The notes under the pieces were generated by a model, which was not told the origin of the DNA, did no database searches, and saw only the letters and a list, made by a program, of their open reading frames with translations. Shown here piece after piece: positions 6,368 to 38,285 of a stretch of DNA of 64,000 nt (positions are counted from its first letter, which is position 1; each line of letters starts with the position of its first letter). The DNA lies in assembly GCA_910822395.1 (NCBI GenBank), contig OU365335.1:1612001-1676000 (forward strand), given 5' to 3'. Both the position numbers and the translations under genes were made by a program. This DNA comes from Pseudoclavibacter triregionum. GTDB lineage: Bacteria; Actinomycetota; Actinomycetes; Actinomycetales; Microbacteriaceae.

Positions 6368-7438
6368 CTACCTCGCGGGGGCGAGCTCCGCGAGGACGGG
6401 GCGGTGGTCGGAGCCCGCGAGATCGTGGTCCGTCACGACCTCGAATCGCGTCGCCCGCCACTGGTCCGTCGCCATGACGTGGTCGATCGGGGAGGCGAGG
6501 ATCGGCGGGACGCCCGCCGGCCAGGTGCCGTTCGCGCCGGAGCCCGCCTGCACGGCCGCGTCGTCGCACTCGCCGAAGTCGTGGCCGTCGTCGCCGAAGC
6601 CGGCGAGGTGGTCGAGCGTCGAATTGAAGTCGCCCGCGACGATCGCGTCGCCGCGGCACTGCAGGGCGAGCCACTCGAGGTCGGATCGCCATTCGGCCAT
6701 GTGCGAGGGGACCGGGGCGATGGGGTGGGCGGCGATGATCGTCGGCCCCTCGCCGTCCACCGGCGTCGCGATGACGGTCGGCAGGTCGGTCGTGCCGCCG
6801 CGGCTCGCGTCGATCTCGTAGTCGCCGAGCTCGGGCGAGATGAGCAGGGTCGTCGAGGTCCACTTGTAGTCGGGGTCGACGACGATCGTGTGGACCCACA
6901 TGGGCCTGCCCGCCTCGCCCATGAGGTTCGCGACCTCCTCGCCCATCTCCTCGGTCGTCTCCGGGAGGGCGACGATGTCCGCGCCGTGGGCGATCGCGAG
7001 ATCGGCGATGGTCGGCGATCCGGGCTCGTCGCCGCGCGTGTTCCAGGCGAGCACGCGGATCGAGCCCTCGGCCTTGTCGCCGGAGACGTCGCCGGAGCCG
7101 AGCCCGCGGCTCGCCATGACGCCCGCCTGCGCGAGGACGAAGGCGGCGAGCACGAGCGTCGTCGCGACGGCGAAGCCGCGGCGGCCGCGGGGGAGCGCGA
7201 TGAGCAGGAGGAGCGAGAGCAGGAGCCCGACGGCGCCGACGATGAGGAGGGGGCCGCGGAAGGCGATGAGCTGCGAGACGCCGAAGGCGAGCTCGAGGCC
7301 GAAGGCCTGCGGCCAGGCGAGCACGGCGCAGCCGGCGGCGAGGAGCACGACGAGGAGCCCGGCGATGGCGGCGCCGAGGCCGAGACGTCGCGCGCCGGCC
7401 GTTCCGGGGCGCGAGGGGCGGGGGGAGCGGGGCGACAT
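6368..7438 (-). CDS. Membrane-anchored endonuclease/exonuclease/phosphatase-family protein
   Basis: 356 aa. Three hydrophobic helices come first (about residues 20-110), placing the catalytic domain outside the membrane. The EEP fold then shows its motifs: VLAWNTRGDE, VALPETTEEM (metal-binding Glu), GDFNSTLDH, SPIDHVMAT and the terminal GSDHRPVLAEL with the catalytic His. Substrate is unknown; relatives act on phosphodiesters, including DNA, lipids and nucleotides. The ATG at 7438 gives a sensible signal/TM start; the frame is open much further upstream but runs antisense through the PHP gene. Divergent from the PHP gene, with 39 bp between starts; a TACGAT box lies 9 nt before this ATG. Confidence 0.85.
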   Translation of the reverse strand: MSPRSPRPSRPGTAGARRLGLGAAIAGLLVVLLAAGCAVLAWPQAFGLELAFGVSQLIAFRGPLLIVGAVGLLLSLLLLIALPRGRRGFAVATTLVLAAFVLAQAGVMASRGLGSGDVSGDKAEGSIRVLAWNTRGDEPGSPTIADLAIAHGADIVALPETTEEMGEEVANLMGEAGRPMWVHTIVVDPDYKWTSTTLLISPELGDYEIDASRGGTTDLPTVIATPVDGEGPTIIAAHPIAPVPSHMAEWRSDLEWLALQCRGDAIVAGDFNSTLDHLAGFGDDGHDFGECDDAAVQAGSGANGTWPAGVPPILASPIDHVMATDQWRATRFEVVTDHDLAGSDHRPVLAELAPAR

Positions 7439-7477
7439 GACCGGGACATCGTACGCGCGAGTGGTTGACTGATCCGC

Positions 7478-8377
7478 ATGCCCTCCCAGCTCGACGCCCC
7501 CCGCCGCCGCTACGACGACGCCCTCCCCATCGACCTCCACACGCACTCCGACGCCTCCGACGGCACGGAGCCCGCAGCGGAGGTCATGCGCCAGGCGGCG
7601 CGCGCCGGGCTCGGCACCGTCGCGCTCACCGACCACGACACCGTCTCGGGCTGGGGCCCGGCGGCCGCGGCGGCGCGCGAGCTCGGCATCACGCTCATCC
7701 CGGGCGTCGAGTTCTCGGCGCAGCTCGGGCCCGCGAGCGTCCACGTGCTCGGCTACCTCATCGACCCCGCGCACGCCGAGCTCGAGGCGGAGATGGCGCA
7801 GACGCGCGTCGAGCGGCTCGAGCGGGCCGAGCGGATGGTCGCGCGCATCGCCGCCGACTACCCCCTGAGCTGGGACGACGTGCTCTCGCACGCGGAGCCC
7901 GGCGCCACCGTCGGCCGCCCGCACATCGCCGACGCGCTCGTGACGAAGGGCATCGTGCCCGACCGCTCGGCCGCCTTCGAGTCGATCCTCCACTGGCAGG
8001 GCGGCTACTACCGGCCGCACATCGCGCCGCCGCCGAAGCGCGCGGTCGAGCTCATCCGCGCGGCCGGCGGCGTGCCGGTGCTCGCGCATCCGGCCACGCG
8101 CGGCCGCCGGGCGATGTCGACGGACGCCATCGGCGAGCTCGTCGAGGCGGGCCTCATGGGCCTCGAGATCGGCCACCGCGAGAACGACGAGCCGGGGCGC
8201 GCGACGCTGCGGCACCACGCGAGGGTCCACGACCTCATCGTGACGGGGTCGAGCGACTACCACGGCGCGGGCAAGCCGAACCGGCTCGGCGAGCACACGA
8301 CCGACCCGGAGCAGCTCGACCGGATCATCTCGGCGGCGACGGGGTCGGCGCCGGTGTATCCGGAAGAGCGCGGCTAG
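7478..8377 (+). CDS. PHP-domain phosphoesterase (TrpH/YciV type)
   Basis: 299 aa. The PHP metal-binding motifs are complete and in order: DLHTHSDASDG near residue 19, ALTDHDTVSGW near 47, the GVEF of the third strand, GRPHIADAL, VLAHPATRG and SSDYHGAGKPN. Proteins of this type hydrolyse phosphoesters; the Escherichia coli member RNase AM removes 5' nucleotides from RNA ends and degrades 3',5'-bisphosphonucleotides. The length fits the single-domain family. Followed by a strong hairpin that it shares with the convergent helicase gene. Confidence 0.9.
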   Translation: MPSQLDAPRRRYDDALPIDLHTHSDASDGTEPAAEVMRQAARAGLGTVALTDHDTVSGWGPAAAAARELGITLIPGVEFSAQLGPASVHVLGYLIDPAHAELEAEMAQTRVERLERAERMVARIAADYPLSWDDVLSHAEPGATVGRPHIADALVTKGIVPDRSAAFESILHWQGGYYRPHIAPPPKRAVELIRAAGGVPVLAHPATRGRRAMSTDAIGELVEAGLMGLEIGHRENDEPGRATLRHHARVHDLIVTGSSDYHGAGKPNRLGEHTTDPEQLDRIISAATGSAPVYPEERG

Positions 8378-32671: not shown

Positions 32672-32717
32672 CTCGACGCCCATCCCTCGCCCGCCCCGGA
32701 GGCCGCGCGGCGCATGA

Positions 32718-32733
32718 TTCTCCGAGTGGAGAA
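32718..32733. promoter_or_regulatory. TetR operator 1 (inverted repeat)
   Basis: TTCTCCGAGTGGAGAA, perfect 6-bp arms around 4 bases, in the gap between the monooxygenase and regulator genes. Confidence 0.65.
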
Positions 32734-32746
32734 ATCGCCTCCAGGC

Positions 32747-32752
32747 TACGCT
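32747..32752 (+). promoter_or_regulatory. -10 box of leaderless tetR promoter
   Basis: TACGCT, 6 nt before the ATG at 32759; its last base is the first base of operator 2. Confidence 0.6.
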
Positions 32753-32765
32753 CTCCGCATGGAGA
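32752..32765. promoter_or_regulatory. TetR operator 2 over the regulator start codon
   Basis: TCTCCGCATGGAGA: same TCTCC-N4-GGAGA consensus as operator 1, with the ATG of the tetR gene in its centre, so bound protein would block start of its own leaderless message. Confidence 0.65.
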
Positions 32766-33319
32766 ACACGCCGACGGCCGGCCTCCCGGCGCGCCTCGCC
32801 GACGCGGGCCTCGCCGTGCTCGCGCGCCGCGGCGCCGCCGGCTTCTCCGCCCGCGCCGCCGAGGAGGAAGCGGGCGCCCCGCACGGCTCCGTCCGGTACC
32901 ACTTCGGCGGCCACGCCGGCCTCGTCAGCGCCATGACCCAGCGCCTCGTCGAGCTCGAGCTCGACGGCGCCGAGGCCGATCCGCTCGGCACGACGGCCGA
33001 CTGGCTCGGCGCCCACCGCGAGCGCACGCGCGCCCGCTACGAGCTGCTCGTCCTCGCGCTCCGCGGCGGTGACGTCAGCGAGCGCTTCCTCGCCGGCCGC
33101 GACGCCGTCGTGGCCCAGGCCGTCGCCGCCACGGGCCTGCCCGCCGAGCGCGCCCGCGGCCTCGTCGCCGCCGTCGACGGCCTCGTGCTCGACGCGATGC
33201 TGCGCGGCGAGGCCGCCCTCGACCCCGCCGACCTCCGCGCGGTCATGGCCGGATTCCTGGGAGCGGGCCCCGGCGCCCTCCGCCTCCCGGATGATCCTCG
33301 TTCGCCTCGGGAGGAATAG
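32759..33319 (+). CDS. TetR-family transcriptional regulator
   Basis: 186 aa. The N-terminal helix-turn-helix is typical: RLADAGLAVLARRGAAGFSA, then AAEEEAGAPHGSVRYHFGGH with the YHF recognition-helix end. The rest is a helical ligand/dimer domain of the kind that senses small hydrophobic molecules. The ATG at 32759 is chosen over 32714 because a TACGCT box lies 6 nt before it and because the earlier ATG falls inside the operator region. Two matching inverted repeats flank the promoter, so autorepression together with control of the divergent monooxygenase is likely. Confidence 0.88.
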   Translation: MENTPTAGLPARLADAGLAVLARRGAAGFSARAAEEEAGAPHGSVRYHFGGHAGLVSAMTQRLVELELDGAEADPLGTTADWLGAHRERTRARYELLVLALRGGDVSERFLAGRDAVVAQAVAATGLPAERARGLVAAVDGLVLDAMLRGEAALDPADLRAVMAGFLGAGPGALRLPDDPRSPREE

Positions 33320-33400: not shown

Positions 33401-34579
33401 GTGAAGCTGCGCCTGCCCCACATCATCGGCATCGGCCTGCTCCTGCTCGCGATCATCGCGGCCGTCGTCCTCCAGCTCATGAACCTCGGCAAGGGCCCGG
33501 CCCGCTTCGGCCTCACGACCGTCACGGGCGTCGTCGGCTCGGAGAAGGTCGAGTTCTTCAACGACCCCGCCGTGCAGGAGGTCTTCGCCCAGCACGGCTA
33601 CGAGGTGAAGGTCACGAAGTCCGGCTCGTGGCGGATGGCCGGCCTCGACGGCCTCGCGGAGAACGACTTCGCGTTCCCGGCCTCCGAGATCGCCGCCCAG
33701 CACATCGAGCAGACCCACAAGGCCGACGTCGTCGCGACGCACAAGCCGTTCTTCTCGCCGATGGCGATCGCGACCTTCGAGCCGATCATGTCCCTCCTCT
33801 CGCAGTCGGGCGCCGCGAAGCAGGACGCGAGCGGCCGCTGGCAGCTCGACATGGCCGCCTACCTCAAGCTCGTCGAGGCCGACACCCGCTGGAACCAGCT
33901 GCCGGGCGCGCAGGGCGTCTACGAGTCGCCGCGCACGGTCATGCTCACCTCGACCGACATCCGCACCTCGAACTCGGCCGGCATGTACCTCGCGCTCGCG
34001 AGCTACGCGCTCAACGGCTCGAGCGTCATCTCCTCGACGGCGCAGGCCGACCAGCTCCTCCCGACGCTCCAGAAGCTCTTCCTCGCGCAGGGCTACTCGG
34101 GGTCGTCCTCGACCGCGCCCTTCGACGACTACCTCTCGCAGGGCATCGGCGCCGTGCCGATGGTCATGATCTACGAGGGCCAGTTCCTCGAGGAGCAGCT
34201 CAAGCCGAACTCGCGCATCCAGCCCGGCATGGTGCTCGCGTACCCGAGCCCCACCATCTTCTCGGTGCACACGGGCGTGACCTTCTCGCAGGAGGGCGAG
34301 GCGATCATGCAGCTGCTCGAGACGGATCCCGAGCTCGCGAGCCTCCTCGCCGCCCACGGCTTCCGCGCCCAGGGCCAGAACGCCGGCGCCTTCCCGACCT
34401 TCCTGCAGGAGCACGGCCTCGAGGGCAGCTACCCGGGCACCTCCTCGTTCGTGTACGTGGCGCAGGAGCCGAGCTACGAGGTCCTCGACTACCTCCTCCG
34501 GAAGATCGGCGACGCCTACTCGCTCTCCGGCGCGCCGCCCGCCCAGACCGACGACGCCTCGACGGGAGCCACGCCGTGA
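33401..34579 (+). CDS. Membrane-anchored periplasmic-binding-like protein of the TelA/XpaC operon
   Basis: 392 aa. GTG at 33401 has a GGAGG ribosome site exactly 6 nt upstream. One N-terminal membrane helix (about residues 6-26, IIGIGLLLLAIIAAVVLQLM) anchors an extracytoplasmic domain that looks like a type-2 solute-binding fold: VGSEKVEFFNDPAVQEVFAQ, SGSWRMAGLDGLAENDFAFP, MLTSTDIRTSNSAGMYLALA, LAYPSPTIFSVHTGVTFSQE. No transporter permease or ATPase is linked, so a sensing or scaffold role is more likely than uptake. GTGA overlap with the following VWA lipoprotein gene. Not recognised as a named family. Confidence 0.75.
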   Translation: MKLRLPHIIGIGLLLLAIIAAVVLQLMNLGKGPARFGLTTVTGVVGSEKVEFFNDPAVQEVFAQHGYEVKVTKSGSWRMAGLDGLAENDFAFPASEIAAQHIEQTHKADVVATHKPFFSPMAIATFEPIMSLLSQSGAAKQDASGRWQLDMAAYLKLVEADTRWNQLPGAQGVYESPRTVMLTSTDIRTSNSAGMYLALASYALNGSSVISSTAQADQLLPTLQKLFLAQGYSGSSSTAPFDDYLSQGIGAVPMVMIYEGQFLEEQLKPNSRIQPGMVLAYPSPTIFSVHTGVTFSQEGEAIMQLLETDPELASLLAAHGFRAQGQNAGAFPTFLQEHGLEGSYPGTSSFVYVAQEPSYEVLDYLLRKIGDAYSLSGAPPAQTDDASTGATP

Positions 34580-36243
34580 CCGCGCACGCCCTGCCCGCGC
34601 ACACCCAGCCCGCCGCCGCCCAGCCGGCCGCCGAGCGGACCCGCCCCAGCCGGGCCATCCGCTTCGCCCGCCGCCTCGCCGCGGCGCTCGTCGCGCTCCT
34701 CGTCATGCCGCTCGCCCTGGCCGGCTGCACGCTCTTCGCGAAGGACAAGCTCGTCGTCCTCGCCGGCTCCGAGGTGAAGGACATGGCGCCGATCCTCGAG
34801 GAGATGGCGCGCGACATCGGCGTCGAGCTCGAGTTCGAGTACATGGGCACGCTGGACGGCACCGAGGCGCTCCTCAACGCCGGCGACCAGCCGAAGTGGG
34901 ACGCGACCTGGTTCCCCTCGAACCGCTACCTCTCGCTCTTCCCGGAGGGCCAGTCGCTCATCTCCAAGAGCGAGTCGATCATGCGCAGCGACGTCGTGCT
35001 CGGCCTCAAGCCCGAGGTGACGCAGCGCCTCGGATGGCAGGGCAAGCAGGTCACCTGGCAGCAGATCGTCGACGCGATCGGCGCGGGCCAGCTCACCTAC
35101 GGCATGACGAGCCCGATCTCCTCGAACTCCGGCTTCACGACGCTCGTGCAGCTCTCGACTGCGCTCTCCGGCACCGGCACCGTGCTCGTCTCGGACGACG
35201 TCGCGAAGGTGACCCCGCAGCTCACGCAGTTCGCGAAGGGCCAGACGCTCGCCTCGGGCTCCTCCGGATGGCTCGCCGAGCGCTTCGCCGAGGCGCCCGA
35301 GCAGGCCGACGGCATCTTCAACTACGACTCCGTGCTCGCGACGCTCTCGGTGAACGGGCAGCAGCTCGACGTCATCCGCCCCTCGGACGGCACGATCTCG
35401 AGCGACTACCCGCTCTCCCTCCTCTCGAGCGCCGGGCCCGACGCGACGGGCCGCTTCGACAAGGTCGTCGAGTACCTCCTCCGCGACGAGGTGCAGCAGA
35501 AGATCGCCGAGACGACCCACCGGCAGACGAGCTCCTCCTCGGCCCCGACCGGCGCGGCCCCGTATCCTGTCTTCCAGCTGCCCTTCCCGAACACGCTCGG
35601 CACCGTGCAGACCCTCCTCACGACGTGGATCGCGAACGTGAAGAAGGCCTCGAACATGGTCTTCGCGATCGACACCTCGGGCTCGATGGGCGCCGACGGC
35701 CGGATGGAGCAGCTCGGCCAGGCGCTCGCGGTGCTCTCGGGCGAGCAGCAGGACGGCACCGCCTCGCTCCTGCGCCTCCAGCCGCGCGAGACGATCACGT
35801 ACCTCGAGTTCGGGAGCAACATCAAGAGCGACGTGACCGTCGAGATCCCGAGCGACGCGGCGGGCTACCAGGCGGCGCTCGACAAGATCGAGCAGACGAC
35901 CTCCGGCTACCGGCCGGGCGGCTCGACCGCGATCTTCGACACCGTGCAGACCGCCTACGAGCGCGCCATCGCCCAGGCCTCGGGCGACCGCCTCTCGAGC
36001 ATCGTCCTCTTCACGGACGGCCAGAACACGACCGGCTCGAGCGAGCGCCAGTTCGAGAGCTGGTACCAGGGCTTCGTCGCGCAGCACCCGGAGGCGAAGG
36101 ACATCCCGGTCTACGCCATCGTCTTCGGCGAGGGCGACGTGGGGGAGCTCGAGCAGCTCGCGGCGCTCACCGGCGGCCGCACCTTCGACGCGGGCTCGAC
36201 CTCGCTCGCCTCCGTCTTCCGAGAGATCCGGGGATACCTGTGA
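34576..36243 (+). CDS. Lipoprotein with binding-protein-like domain fused to a VWA domain
   Basis: 555 aa. Signal peptide and lipobox (LLVMPLALAGC, Cys about residue 50) lead to an extracytoplasmic solute-binding-like domain (about 60-340, VVLAGSEVKDMAPILEEMAR, GMTSPISSNSGFTTLVQLST). A von Willebrand A domain follows (about 355-555) with a complete MIDAS: DTSGSMG, the Thr of GGSTAIFDT and the Asp of LFTDGQNT. It would bind metal and partner proteins at the cell surface. Start GTG overlaps the stop of the previous gene, and its own stop overlaps the next GTG, so the unit is tightly coupled. Confidence 0.82.
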   Translation: MTAHALPAHTQPAAAQPAAERTRPSRAIRFARRLAAALVALLVMPLALAGCTLFAKDKLVVLAGSEVKDMAPILEEMARDIGVELEFEYMGTLDGTEALLNAGDQPKWDATWFPSNRYLSLFPEGQSLISKSESIMRSDVVLGLKPEVTQRLGWQGKQVTWQQIVDAIGAGQLTYGMTSPISSNSGFTTLVQLSTALSGTGTVLVSDDVAKVTPQLTQFAKGQTLASGSSGWLAERFAEAPEQADGIFNYDSVLATLSVNGQQLDVIRPSDGTISSDYPLSLLSSAGPDATGRFDKVVEYLLRDEVQQKIAETTHRQTSSSSAPTGAAPYPVFQLPFPNTLGTVQTLLTTWIANVKKASNMVFAIDTSGSMGADGRMEQLGQALAVLSGEQQDGTASLLRLQPRETITYLEFGSNIKSDVTVEIPSDAAGYQAALDKIEQTTSGYRPGGSTAIFDTVQTAYERAIAQASGDRLSSIVLFTDGQNTTGSSERQFESWYQGFVAQHPEAKDIPVYAIVFGEGDVGELEQLAALTGGRTFDAGSTSLASVFREIRGYL

Positions 36244-36926
36244 ACCTGCGCCAGCTCGGCCTCCCGCTCGTCGTCGGCACGGGCACGACGATCGCGGCCG
36301 GCGCCGCGCTCGTCTTCCTCCTCGGCTTCGCCCCGCCCGTCGGGGGAGCGCTCGCGCTCGCCCTCGGCGCCGGCGCGGGCCTGCTCGCCTCGCCCATGCC
36401 GCCGAAGCCGCTCGAGCTCGGCGGCCCGCCGCCCTCCTCGGTGAACGGCATGCTCGACCAGGCGCGCCAGTCCGCCGACCAGATGTCGGCGACGATGAAG
36501 CGCCTCACGAGCCGCCCGCTCTGGGACGGCAGCCCGCTCGACGAGCGGCTCGCGCACATGCTCGACGGCATCCGCACCCTCGCGGCGACGCCCGCGCTCC
36601 GCTCGCGCACCTCCGTCGACGGCGACGTCCAGATGCTCTGGGCGCTCGCGACCGACTACCTGCCGACGATCGTGAACCTCGCGATCGAGAACGACCGCAT
36701 GCACTCGACCTTCTCGGGCCGCTCCTCGCGCGCCCAGGTCGAGCAGAACATCCGCGGCCTCGAGCAGCAGGCGGGCATCCTCGCCGAGGCCCTCGACCGC
36801 ATCGAGACGGACGTCGTCCGCGGCACGACCCAGTCGATCGCCGAGCACGACGCCTTCCTCCGCTCGCGATTCGAGCAGTTCGGGGGCGACTCCGTGCTCG
36901 ACCTCTCGAAGTCGGTGGGGCGCTAG
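36240..36926 (+). CDS. XpaC-like membrane protein
   Basis: 228 aa. Two N-terminal membrane helices (about residues 6-30 and 32-50, separated by PPVG) are followed by a long helical cytoplasmic domain (MLDQARQSADQMSATMKRLT, YLPTIVNLAIENDRMHSTFS, GLEQQAGILAEALDRIETDV). Size, topology and the gene directly in front of telA match the XpaC family (5-bromo-4-chloroindolyl phosphate hydrolysis protein), but primary-sequence similarity is not something I can measure, so this is an inference. GTGA overlap with the VWA gene. Confidence 0.6.
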   Translation: MNLRQLGLPLVVGTGTTIAAGAALVFLLGFAPPVGGALALALGAGAGLLASPMPPKPLELGGPPPSSVNGMLDQARQSADQMSATMKRLTSRPLWDGSPLDERLAHMLDGIRTLAATPALRSRTSVDGDVQMLWALATDYLPTIVNLAIENDRMHSTFSGRSSRAQVEQNIRGLEQQAGILAEALDRIETDVVRGTTQSIAEHDAFLRSRFEQFGGDSVLDLSKSVGR

Positions 36927-37037
36927 CGCCGCCGCCCGGCCGAGCCATCGTCCAGCCCGAGCATCCGGCCCCCACCAATCAGCCCCGACAGCCACCTCAC
37001 CCGCACCGCAGCGACCGACCCCGAGGAGACGGATCCC

Positions 37038-38285
37038 ATGACCGACAAGCTCCAGCCGCCGAGCCCCGAGGAGCTCGCCCCCATCGAGGCCGCCCCGCCG
37101 GTCGAGCAGGTGCAGCCGACGAAGGCCGTCGACATGCTCCCGGACATCGCCCCGGAGACGGCCCTCGACCTCCGCCACCGCGCCGACACCTGGGTCGGCC
37201 ACCTCGCGACGATGAAGCCGAAGACGCCCGAGTACCTCGAGCAGGTCCGCGCCATCCAGAACGTCGCGCGTCAGGAGATCACCCAGACCTCGCAGGCCTC
37301 GAACCGCTTCCTCCAGACGAGCCTCCAGCAGGCGAAGTCGGCCGGCGGCCAGGGCCACGCCGCGGAGGTGTCGCGCTCGCTCGTGGACCTCCGCAACAAG
37401 GTCGAGGAGCTCGCGCCGAACAACCAGTCGTTCTTCACGAAGCTCGCGCGGATGCTTCCCGGAGGCAAGCAGGTGCAGCGCTACTTCCGCCAGTACGAGT
37501 CGAACCAGGAGCAGCTCAACCAGGTCCTCGTCTCGCTCGAGCGCGGCCAGGACATGCTCCGCAAGGACAACGCGGCGCTCGCGGTCGAGCGCAAGAGCCT
37601 CTGGGACGCCATGGGCGAGCTCAAGAAGCTCGGCGCGCTCCTCCAGGAGCTCGACGGCGCGGTCGTCCGCAAGATCGACGAGCTCAAGGCCTCCGGCGAC
37701 GCGCAGGCGGCGCAGGCGATGGAGTCGGACGTCCTCTTCGCGGTGCGGCAGCGCCACGCGGACGTCCAGACCCAGATGGCCGTGAGCGTCCAGTCGTACC
37801 TCTCGATGGACCTCATCCAGGACAACAACCTCAAGCTCGTCGACGGCGTGGAGCGCGCGAAGACGACGACGATGACGGCGCTGCGCACGGCCGTCGTCGT
37901 CGCGCAGGCGCTCGAGAACCAGCGGATCGTCCTCGACCAGATCGACGCCGTGAACTCGACGACGAACGCGATGATCGACCAGACGAGCCAGATGCTCCGC
38001 GAGAACACGGGCCGCATCCAGGAGCAGGCCGTGAACTCGGGCGTCTCGCTCGAGACGCTCCAGCGCGCCTACGACAACGTGTTCGCGACGATCGACCAGG
38101 TCGAGACGTTTCGGATGAACGCGAACCGGAACTTCGCGACGACGATCGACAACCTCAACGCCCAGCTCCAGCGGGCCGAGCCGTACCTCGAGCGCTCGCG
38201 ACAGAACGAGCTCGCGCGCGGGGAGTCGGGATCGCAGACGCTGCTCTCCGGCGACGGCCAGCAGCCCCCGCAGCTCCTGCCGTAG
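37038..38285 (+). CDS. telA: TelA-family (toxic anion resistance) protein
   Basis: 415 aa, typical size. Long coiled-coil-forming helices throughout with the family core: FLQTSLQQAKSAGGQGHAAE, VRQRHADVQTQMAVSVQSYL, MDLIQDNNLKLVDGVERAKT and LRTAVVVAQALENQRIVLDQ. TelA proteins were named for tellurite resistance, but their true role is probably in envelope stress. Start ATG has GAGGAG 9 nt upstream. It follows the XpaC-like gene after 111 bp with no terminator, so it is the fourth gene of this operon. The tail (QQPPQLLP) is disordered. Confidence 0.92.
   Translation: MTDKLQPPSPEELAPIEAAPPVEQVQPTKAVDMLPDIAPETALDLRHRADTWVGHLATMKPKTPEYLEQVRAIQNVARQEITQTSQASNRFLQTSLQQAKSAGGQGHAAEVSRSLVDLRNKVEELAPNNQSFFTKLARMLPGGKQVQRYFRQYESNQEQLNQVLVSLERGQDMLRKDNAALAVERKSLWDAMGELKKLGALLQELDGAVVRKIDELKASGDAQAAQAMESDVLFAVRQRHADVQTQMAVSVQSYLSMDLIQDNNLKLVDGVERAKTTTMTALRTAVVVAQALENQRIVLDQIDAVNSTTNAMIDQTSQMLRENTGRIQEQAVNSGVSLETLQRAYDNVFATIDQVETFRMNANRNFATTIDNLNAQLQRAEPYLERSRQNELARGESGSQTLLSGDGQQPPQLLP

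Follow-up and report, generated by a model that had tools for sequence, protein, structure and literature searches.

Gene content and organization of the locus

A module of four genes was analyzed at positions 33401-38285 of a 64,000-nucleotide stretch of the Pseudoclavibacter triregionum genome (contig OU365335.1, positions 1,612,001 to 1,676,000, forward strand), hereafter referred to as the window. All four genes lie on one strand and combine two proteins predicted to work outside the cytoplasm with a small membrane protein and the toxic anion resistance protein TelA. The first three were delimited as open reading frames (ORFs): gene 1 (33401-34579, +) codes for an anchored protein of 392 aa resembling solute-binding proteins (SBPs), gene 2 (34576-36243, +) for a putative lipoprotein of 555 aa in which an SBP domain is fused to a von Willebrand factor A (VWA) domain, and gene 3 (36240-36926, +) for a protein of 228 aa with two predicted membrane helices, a further domain and a distant XpaC-type character. 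The fourth gene, telA (37038-38285, +; 415 aa), was assigned through PF05816. The initial annotation of this DNA, made from its letters and ORFs, had described the genes as joined by GTGA overlaps; such overlaps were found between genes 1 and 2 (34576-34579, +) and between genes 2 and 3 (36240-36243, +), but not at telA, whose start lies beyond a 111-bp gap after gene 3.

Genes 1 and 3 gave no significant match in either Pfam or NCBIfam. The four proteins were compared through family alignments consisting of the window protein and part of the relatives described below: 37 rows for gene 1 (A3, from 51 relatives), 38 for gene 2 (A4, from 53), 36 for gene 3 (A2, from 47) and 24 for TelA (A5, from 32), the omitted relatives being mostly near-duplicates and contig-end pieces. 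The host genome (2.36 Mb in a single contig, 90% complete) holds one TelA, and the nearest named relative of gene 2 among the matches listed belongs to Gulosibacter sp., another member of the Microbacteriaceae. A promoter and terminator scan of the module found nothing.

The outer pair: two homologous binding domains and a VWA metal site

Gene 2 carries a lipobox (LAGC) whose cysteine, C51 (34726-34728, +), is a cysteine in 35 of the 38 aligned proteins and falls in a gap in the other three. It is followed by an SBP_bac_11-type domain (residues 56-338; 34741-35589, +), assigned from PF13531 matches in relatives and from profile A8, and by the VWA domain (residues 360-539; 35653-36192, +; PF00092, 6e-12), which was found in all 38 aligned proteins. 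The metal ion-dependent adhesion site (MIDAS) is complete, as had been claimed: the DTSGS motif (residues 366-370; 35671-35685, +) provides the ligands D366, S368 and S370, and T451 (35926-35928, +) and D481 (36016-36018, +) supply the remaining metal-site residues, all five being identical across 38/38 aligned proteins. Structures in the PDB related to this domain include several adhesion, matrix or pilus proteins and, at an E-value of about 0.001, the alpha2-delta protein of voltage-gated calcium channels. In alpha2-delta, extracellular VWA/MIDAS and ligand-binding domains act on a membrane partner; the VWA domain alone is shared with gene 2, and the ligand-binding fold of alpha2-delta differs from the SBP fold.

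No Pfam SBP domain was detected in the window gene 2 at E-values up to 1, and PF13531 matched 27 of the 38 aligned gene 2 proteins at E-values up to 0.1 (best, 1.4e-17). PDB relatives of the SBP domain, including the molybdate-binding protein ModA, were all sub-threshold (best E-value, 0.019). A Variovorax relative is named by NCBI "substrate-binding and VWA domain-containing protein", a designation that corresponds to the gene 2 family and whose records carry the name only.

Gene 1 has an N-terminal membrane anchor predicted by hydropathy (residues 8-26; 33422-33478, +), and a hydrophobic segment precedes residue 60 in 35 of 37 aligned gene 1 proteins; an N-in/C-out topology is inferred. Pfam SBP domains were likewise absent from the window protein at E-values up to 1, with PF13531 matching 3 of 37 relatives within the same limit (best, 0.0012). 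Nevertheless, profile-profile comparison of gene 1 with the gene 2 SBP domain by hhalign gave a probability of 97.3% over 297 columns (2e-11) and, in a second comparison, of 96.9%, the E-values being those of a single comparison. These results indicate that the binding domains of genes 1 and 2 are homologous, and the alignments show corresponding conserved positions in both (GS/GT, SNSA/SNSG, Q and YE). The earlier proposal of two outside proteins of binding-protein type was thus upheld. The single PDB match of gene 1 (E-value, 4.5e-6), an alignment of 30 residues with a chain of 1343 aa, was set aside as unconvincing.

Three lone gene 1 relatives (L100:5466-7007, L101:5956-7536 and L159:5510-6958), with no gene 2 within the fetched stretch, bear an N-terminal extension ahead of the anchor. 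In L100 and L101 this extension contains the NF046112 three-helix dimerization domain (1.2e-19 and 6.6e-18, respectively), and the extension of L159 resembles a domain of the same type as judged by eye. A dimerization domain placed before the anchor would fit both the N-in/C-out topology of gene 1 and a receptor-like use.

The inner pair: gene 3 and TelA

The identity of TelA was confirmed by its match to PF05816 (4e-73; 246.8 bits against a curated cut-off of 30). The protein has no hydrophobic segment and is taken as cytoplasmic. No convincing solved relative was found in the PDB for either gene 3 or TelA. A profile built from eight gene 3 seeds from outside the genus, run against 6679 ORFs, recovered gene 3 of the window almost end to end, with E-values of 3.6e-7 and 1.5e-6 in two sequence sets that overlap; the same-genus copy L003 reached only 0.0012 with that profile.

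The description of gene 3 as XpaC-like held in part. The XpaC model PF10112 did not match the window protein and was absent from the 25 of 33 Pfam families listed for the 36 gene 3 members, and comparison of the gene 3 family with five XpaC proteins by hhalign gave a moderate 52%, which rose to 78% when two proteins occupying the gene 3 slot in other modules were added; gene 3 against TelA, unrelated proteins that served as negative control, gave 0.4%. Among PF10112 proteins tested with the A2 profile, L102, L103 and L105 scored above 200/200 shuffles, whereas L108 and L110 did not beat all of them. On the other hand, a PF10112 protein does take the place of gene 3 in some modules: the slot protein of L102 scores 38.5 bits (cut-off 29.8) and that of L103, under the cut-off, 22.5 bits. 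In genomes G136 and G157 the gene order is gene 2, PF10112-type protein, gene 1, TelA, and G265 has the same genes distributed over two contigs. This moderate sequence support, together with the shared slot, makes kinship with XpaC likely, and gene 3 is probably an XpaC-type protein that is not a member of PF10112.

The inner pair also occurs without genes 1 and 2, as seen in G176 (L107) and in a sister genome (L119). Two further arrangements were observed: in L051 the first gene 3-type gene is directly followed by another (6897-7799), TelA being encoded on the opposite strand, and on a Vescimonas plasmid (L114:2776-5182) XpaC-TelA is followed by a protein annotated as containing a TPM domain.

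Linkage of the four genes across genomes

The initial annotation had named linkage across genomes, beforehand, as a test of the four-gene system. A contig scan with seven gene 2 sequences returned at least 114 relatives, of which 80 loci were kept and form the basis of the locus counts: 55 relatives (L014-L068), 53 of them with gene 2 covering at least 75% of its profile, and 25 controls (L069-L093, spanning 4.3-14.7 kb) that match the VWA part or little more. For gene 1 the count was 51 of the 55 relatives, for gene 3 it was 47 and for same-strand TelA 32. Among the 46 relatives with at least 2.3 kb on either side (complete flanks), the corresponding figures were 46/46 for gene 1, 40/46 for gene 3 and 30/46 for TelA on either strand. 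By contrast, gene 1 and TelA were absent from all 25 VWA-only controls, in which gene 3 was not found at E < 1e-3 either; a match of 0.004 appeared in control L077 with the speed filters off. The relatives of named origin belong to Actinomycetota, Pseudomonadota, Deinococcota, Verrucomicrobiota and Dormibacterota. Linkage of the four genes therefore exceeds chance and, far from being rare, extends over five phyla; it does not define a fixed unit, as shown by the counts for gene 3 and TelA.

The order of the genes varied while the linkage persisted. On a 58-row gene 2 tree, the order gene 1-TelA-gene 2-gene 3 was found in 30 loci, gene 1-gene 2-gene 3-TelA in 6 (the window included), gene 1-gene 2-gene 3 in 13 (among them L051, with its TelA on the other strand) and gene 1-gene 2 in 7, the two remaining loci lying at contig ends. 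The place of TelA requires at least 2 changes on this quick tree and its presence at least 12. Gene 1 immediately precedes gene 2 in 29 of 51 loci and is separated from it by TelA in 22. With script-assigned starts, genes 2 and 3 share a stretch of 4 or 14 bp in 38 of 45 relatives.

A sample of 246 genomes of the phylum gave a similar picture. TelA scored above its cut-off in 12 of them (14 places), and gene 2 scores of 280 bits or more were obtained at 9 places, distributed over 8 genomes that include the one of the window. This gene 2 cut-off was chosen after the list had been seen (the next match has 154 bits), and at most five gene 2 candidates were scored per genome, so that large genomes may hide further copies. 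TelA was present in 8/8 genomes with gene 2 versus 4/238 others (Fisher, 1.7e-12), and the two genes lie within 3 kb in 7 of the 8 genomes. In the eighth, G265, they are split between two contigs, and no TelA adjoins the second copy of gene 2 in G165. Eight of the 14 TelA places are in the module and one is beside gene 3 alone (L107); of the rest, three adjoin a PF10112 protein (G050, G211 and G233) and two neither (L106 and L109). In a sample of the class, gene 1 was found in 62/394 genomes. Eighteen of these loci, hand-picked to include long frames and low scores besides some ordinary cases, were read; gene 2 clustered with gene 1 in 17, and TelA plus gene 3 accompanied them in 4.

A constant core with an optional inner pair

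Wherever gene 2 and TelA occur together, gene 3 is also present (30/30 loci with complete flanks and 38/38 in a 68-row set), and gene 3 without TelA was found in 10/46 and 11/68 loci, respectively. The association of gene 3 with TelA was significant in both sets when descent is ignored (Fisher, 0.00085 and 1.6e-9); after correction for descent, an average of 2.8 among 7 independent pairs were concordant and none discordant. TelA is missing in line from 21 relatives with gene 2. The genomes of 19 of these were searched, and 7 were found to hold a TelA, which in L051 is part of the locus itself but encoded on the other strand. Thus, the outer pair (genes 1 and 2) is the constant core of the module, and gene 3 and TelA constitute an optional inner pair.

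Distribution within the genus is patchy. Gene 2 is present at full or nearly full length in 4/10 genomes and TelA in 4/10, with three genomes in common, and no gene 2 was found in 15 genomes from other genera of the family. In G004 (L117), TelA persists next to a gene 2 stub of roughly 48 C-terminal residues, and genes 1 and 3 were not recognised; this locus is probably a decayed module. G003 shows a partial TelA match in its module and has a further TelA-gene 3 pair at another site. Plasmid copies of the module were found in Variovorax, Sphaerotilus and Deinococcus.

Genes surrounding the module

Seven neighbouring ORFs were tested in the window: a TetR-type regulator (32714-33319), a piece of a FAD-binding protein, a UPF0182 protein, an ORF without Pfam match, a xanthine/uracil permease, a 3-hydroxyacyl-CoA dehydrogenase and a carrier of the major facilitator superfamily. 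In agreement with the annotation, none of the seven is a permease or ATPase of the ATP-binding cassette (ABC) type, and neither TerD nor TerC is among them. In the other loci, a script selected 180 neighbour ORFs; nine near-duplicate loci were dropped, and the 77 ORFs closest to the modules on either side were scanned. The families found in at least two of these 77 were LysR regulators (3) and housekeeping families and ABC_tran (2 each). No permease family recurred in two or more of the 77 nearest neighbours, nor did TerD or TerC, the scan covering the nearest genes only. The possibility of an importer with a linked permease was rejected, there being no recurrent permease family among the nearest neighbours and no ABC permease or ATPase among the seven ORFs tested in the window. 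In search of a fifth partner, neighbour ORFs were clustered all against all; most of what emerged was either genus-specific genes or shadow frames belonging to the four genes. A defence island was rejected as well, since no PADLOC family appeared in more than 2 of the 77 nearest neighbours.

Comparison with known systems

The gene pairs xpaC-yaaN of Bacillus subtilis, which is a sigma-W core operon (PMC3498285), and lmo1966-lmo1967 of Listeria resemble the inner pair in that a small protein gene lies beside a gene of the same TelA family. A Listeria lmo1967 mutant shows a 4-fold increase in sensitivity to nisin and a 2-fold increase to tellurite, the mode of action of Lmo1967 (TelA) being stated as not known (PMC12791056), and TelA and XpaC have been tied to envelope stress in several bacteria (PMC12791056, PMC3498285). 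Gene 3 differs from XpaC proper in being distantly XpaC-like but short of PF10112. Furthermore, the passages of these papers that deal with the two pairs mention no extracytoplasmic SBP or VWA partner, whereas the module described here has both. Ter systems, which comprise TelA, TerD, TerC and the VWA protein TerF (PMC7824862), share with it the combination of TelA and a VWA protein; however, the VWA domain in our module resides on a predicted exported lipoprotein, fused to an SBP domain. SBP_bac_11/ModA-type importer proteins have the same fold family as the N-terminal domain of gene 2 and, by homology, as gene 1, but in contrast to them the module has no recurrent permease or ATPase beside it, a VWA fusion and a membrane-anchored paralogue.

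The annotation had also stated that no characterized system of this make-up was known. No description of the four-gene set was recognised in full-text searches of open-access papers, most subscription papers being outside that scope. The parts of the module are of known kinds, and their arrangement appears to be new.

A putative envelope module without a permease

The recurrence of permease-free sets in distant bacteria argues for an envelope device rather than a nutrient importer, and the module probably serves the cell envelope in protection or sensing. In its full form, this interpretation, to which we assign about even chances, proposes a permease-free module for stress sensing or protection, with ligand capture outside, contact through the VWA domain and coupling via gene 3 to TelA. 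The outer layer would consist of two homologous type-II SBP domains, one tethered by a helix (gene 1) and one on the lipoprotein with the VWA domain (gene 2), and the inner layer of the XpaC-type two-helix membrane protein (gene 3) and cytoplasmic TelA. The outer pair may bind a compound or an envelope component, and the VWA metal site could reversibly engage a protein partner, be it gene 1, gene 3 or some other membrane protein. Gene 3 would then couple this outside contact to TelA at the membrane, and the cell would resist envelope-damaging or toxic compounds by sensing or holding them without import. We tentatively suggest, as a less secure generalization, that the outer pair might represent a new and widespread class of permease-free receptors pluggable into different membrane outputs, the output here being XpaC-type/TelA, for which this would be the first known extracellular input to TelA. 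A conserved partner set gives handles on TelA (a ligand to find, a metal site open to mutation and a candidate contact between outer and inner proteins), and an outer pair without a transporter of its own would be an unusual use of solute-binding proteins.

Several observations weigh against this proposal. TelA was found nowhere in 12 of the 19 searched genomes with gene 2 and no in-line TelA, some of them incomplete, and neither TelA nor gene 3 is present in 14 of the 18 actinobacterial loci read for the class. As the outer pair often occurs without TelA, TelA cannot be its general output. TelA also occurs outside the module without gene 3 (L106, L109 and L117), and the correlation between the two is not significant when descent is allowed for (sign test, median p 0.25). 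No dedicated regulator was found for the module, and its proposed stress role is carried over by analogy from TelA and XpaC of other phyla. Finally, in Gulosibacter a divergent ABC import operon (L014:2103-5114, minus strand) lies upstream of the module, with a binding protein of PF04392 and a permease and ATPase judged by eye. Since it runs the opposite way and has its own binding protein, it was taken for a separate importer.

The occurrence of the outer pair without the inner pair would also suit a structural or assembly role, in which the SBP folds no longer capture ligands and the VWA/MIDAS protein scaffolds or chaperones an envelope complex such as cell wall, pilus or lipid machinery. 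The invariance of the five metal-site residues and the adhesion, matrix or pilus proteins among the VWA relatives are in line with such a role, which we nevertheless consider rather unlikely, as the conserved positions matching between both SBP domains would not obviously be needed by a mere scaffold. The refuting outcome formulated beforehand, that genes 1 and 2 are ordinary importer binding proteins with a distant permease, did not come true. An unlinked ABC permease serving them would be compatible with membership of the SBP_bac_11 family, with the importer SBPs among the best solved relatives (ModA, sub-threshold as noted above) and with the Gulosibacter operon; but that operon owns a separate binding protein, no permease family recurs among the nearest neighbours, the VWA fusion and a permanently anchored second copy do not suit an importer, and the linkage kept across phyla is to TelA and gene 3 instead. 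This explanation is accordingly deemed improbable.

The patchy spread (4/10 genomes of the genus) and the plasmid copies might point to a module for defence against phages or other bacteria, a role already proposed for TelA-containing Ter systems, among whose components TelA may take part in blocking phage entry (PMC7824862). The Variovorax copy (L009, 9487-11437), on an 800-kb plasmid, is separated by about 2.4 kb from genes of the Wadjet anti-phage system. However, a PADLOC scan of the four proteins gave only a weak ZorA match of gene 3 (0.016), no PADLOC family exceeded two occurrences in the neighbour scan, and no copy of the module was found in phage or viral-contig collections, so that a defence function has a low probability. 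That the four genes are a chance neighbourhood of unrelated genes is hardly credible: the families do occur separately, but this explanation is contradicted by clustering kept in five phyla and several orders and by the frequent 4- or 14-bp overlaps.

More distant relatives

Plasmids of Thiodictyon (L013) and Miltoncostaea (L012) carry more distant SBP-VWA relatives of gene 2, scoring about 310 bits. A small unnamed protein is encoded downstream in each, and L013 also has a gene 1-like protein. These relatives suggest that the SBP-VWA family is wider than the set studied here.

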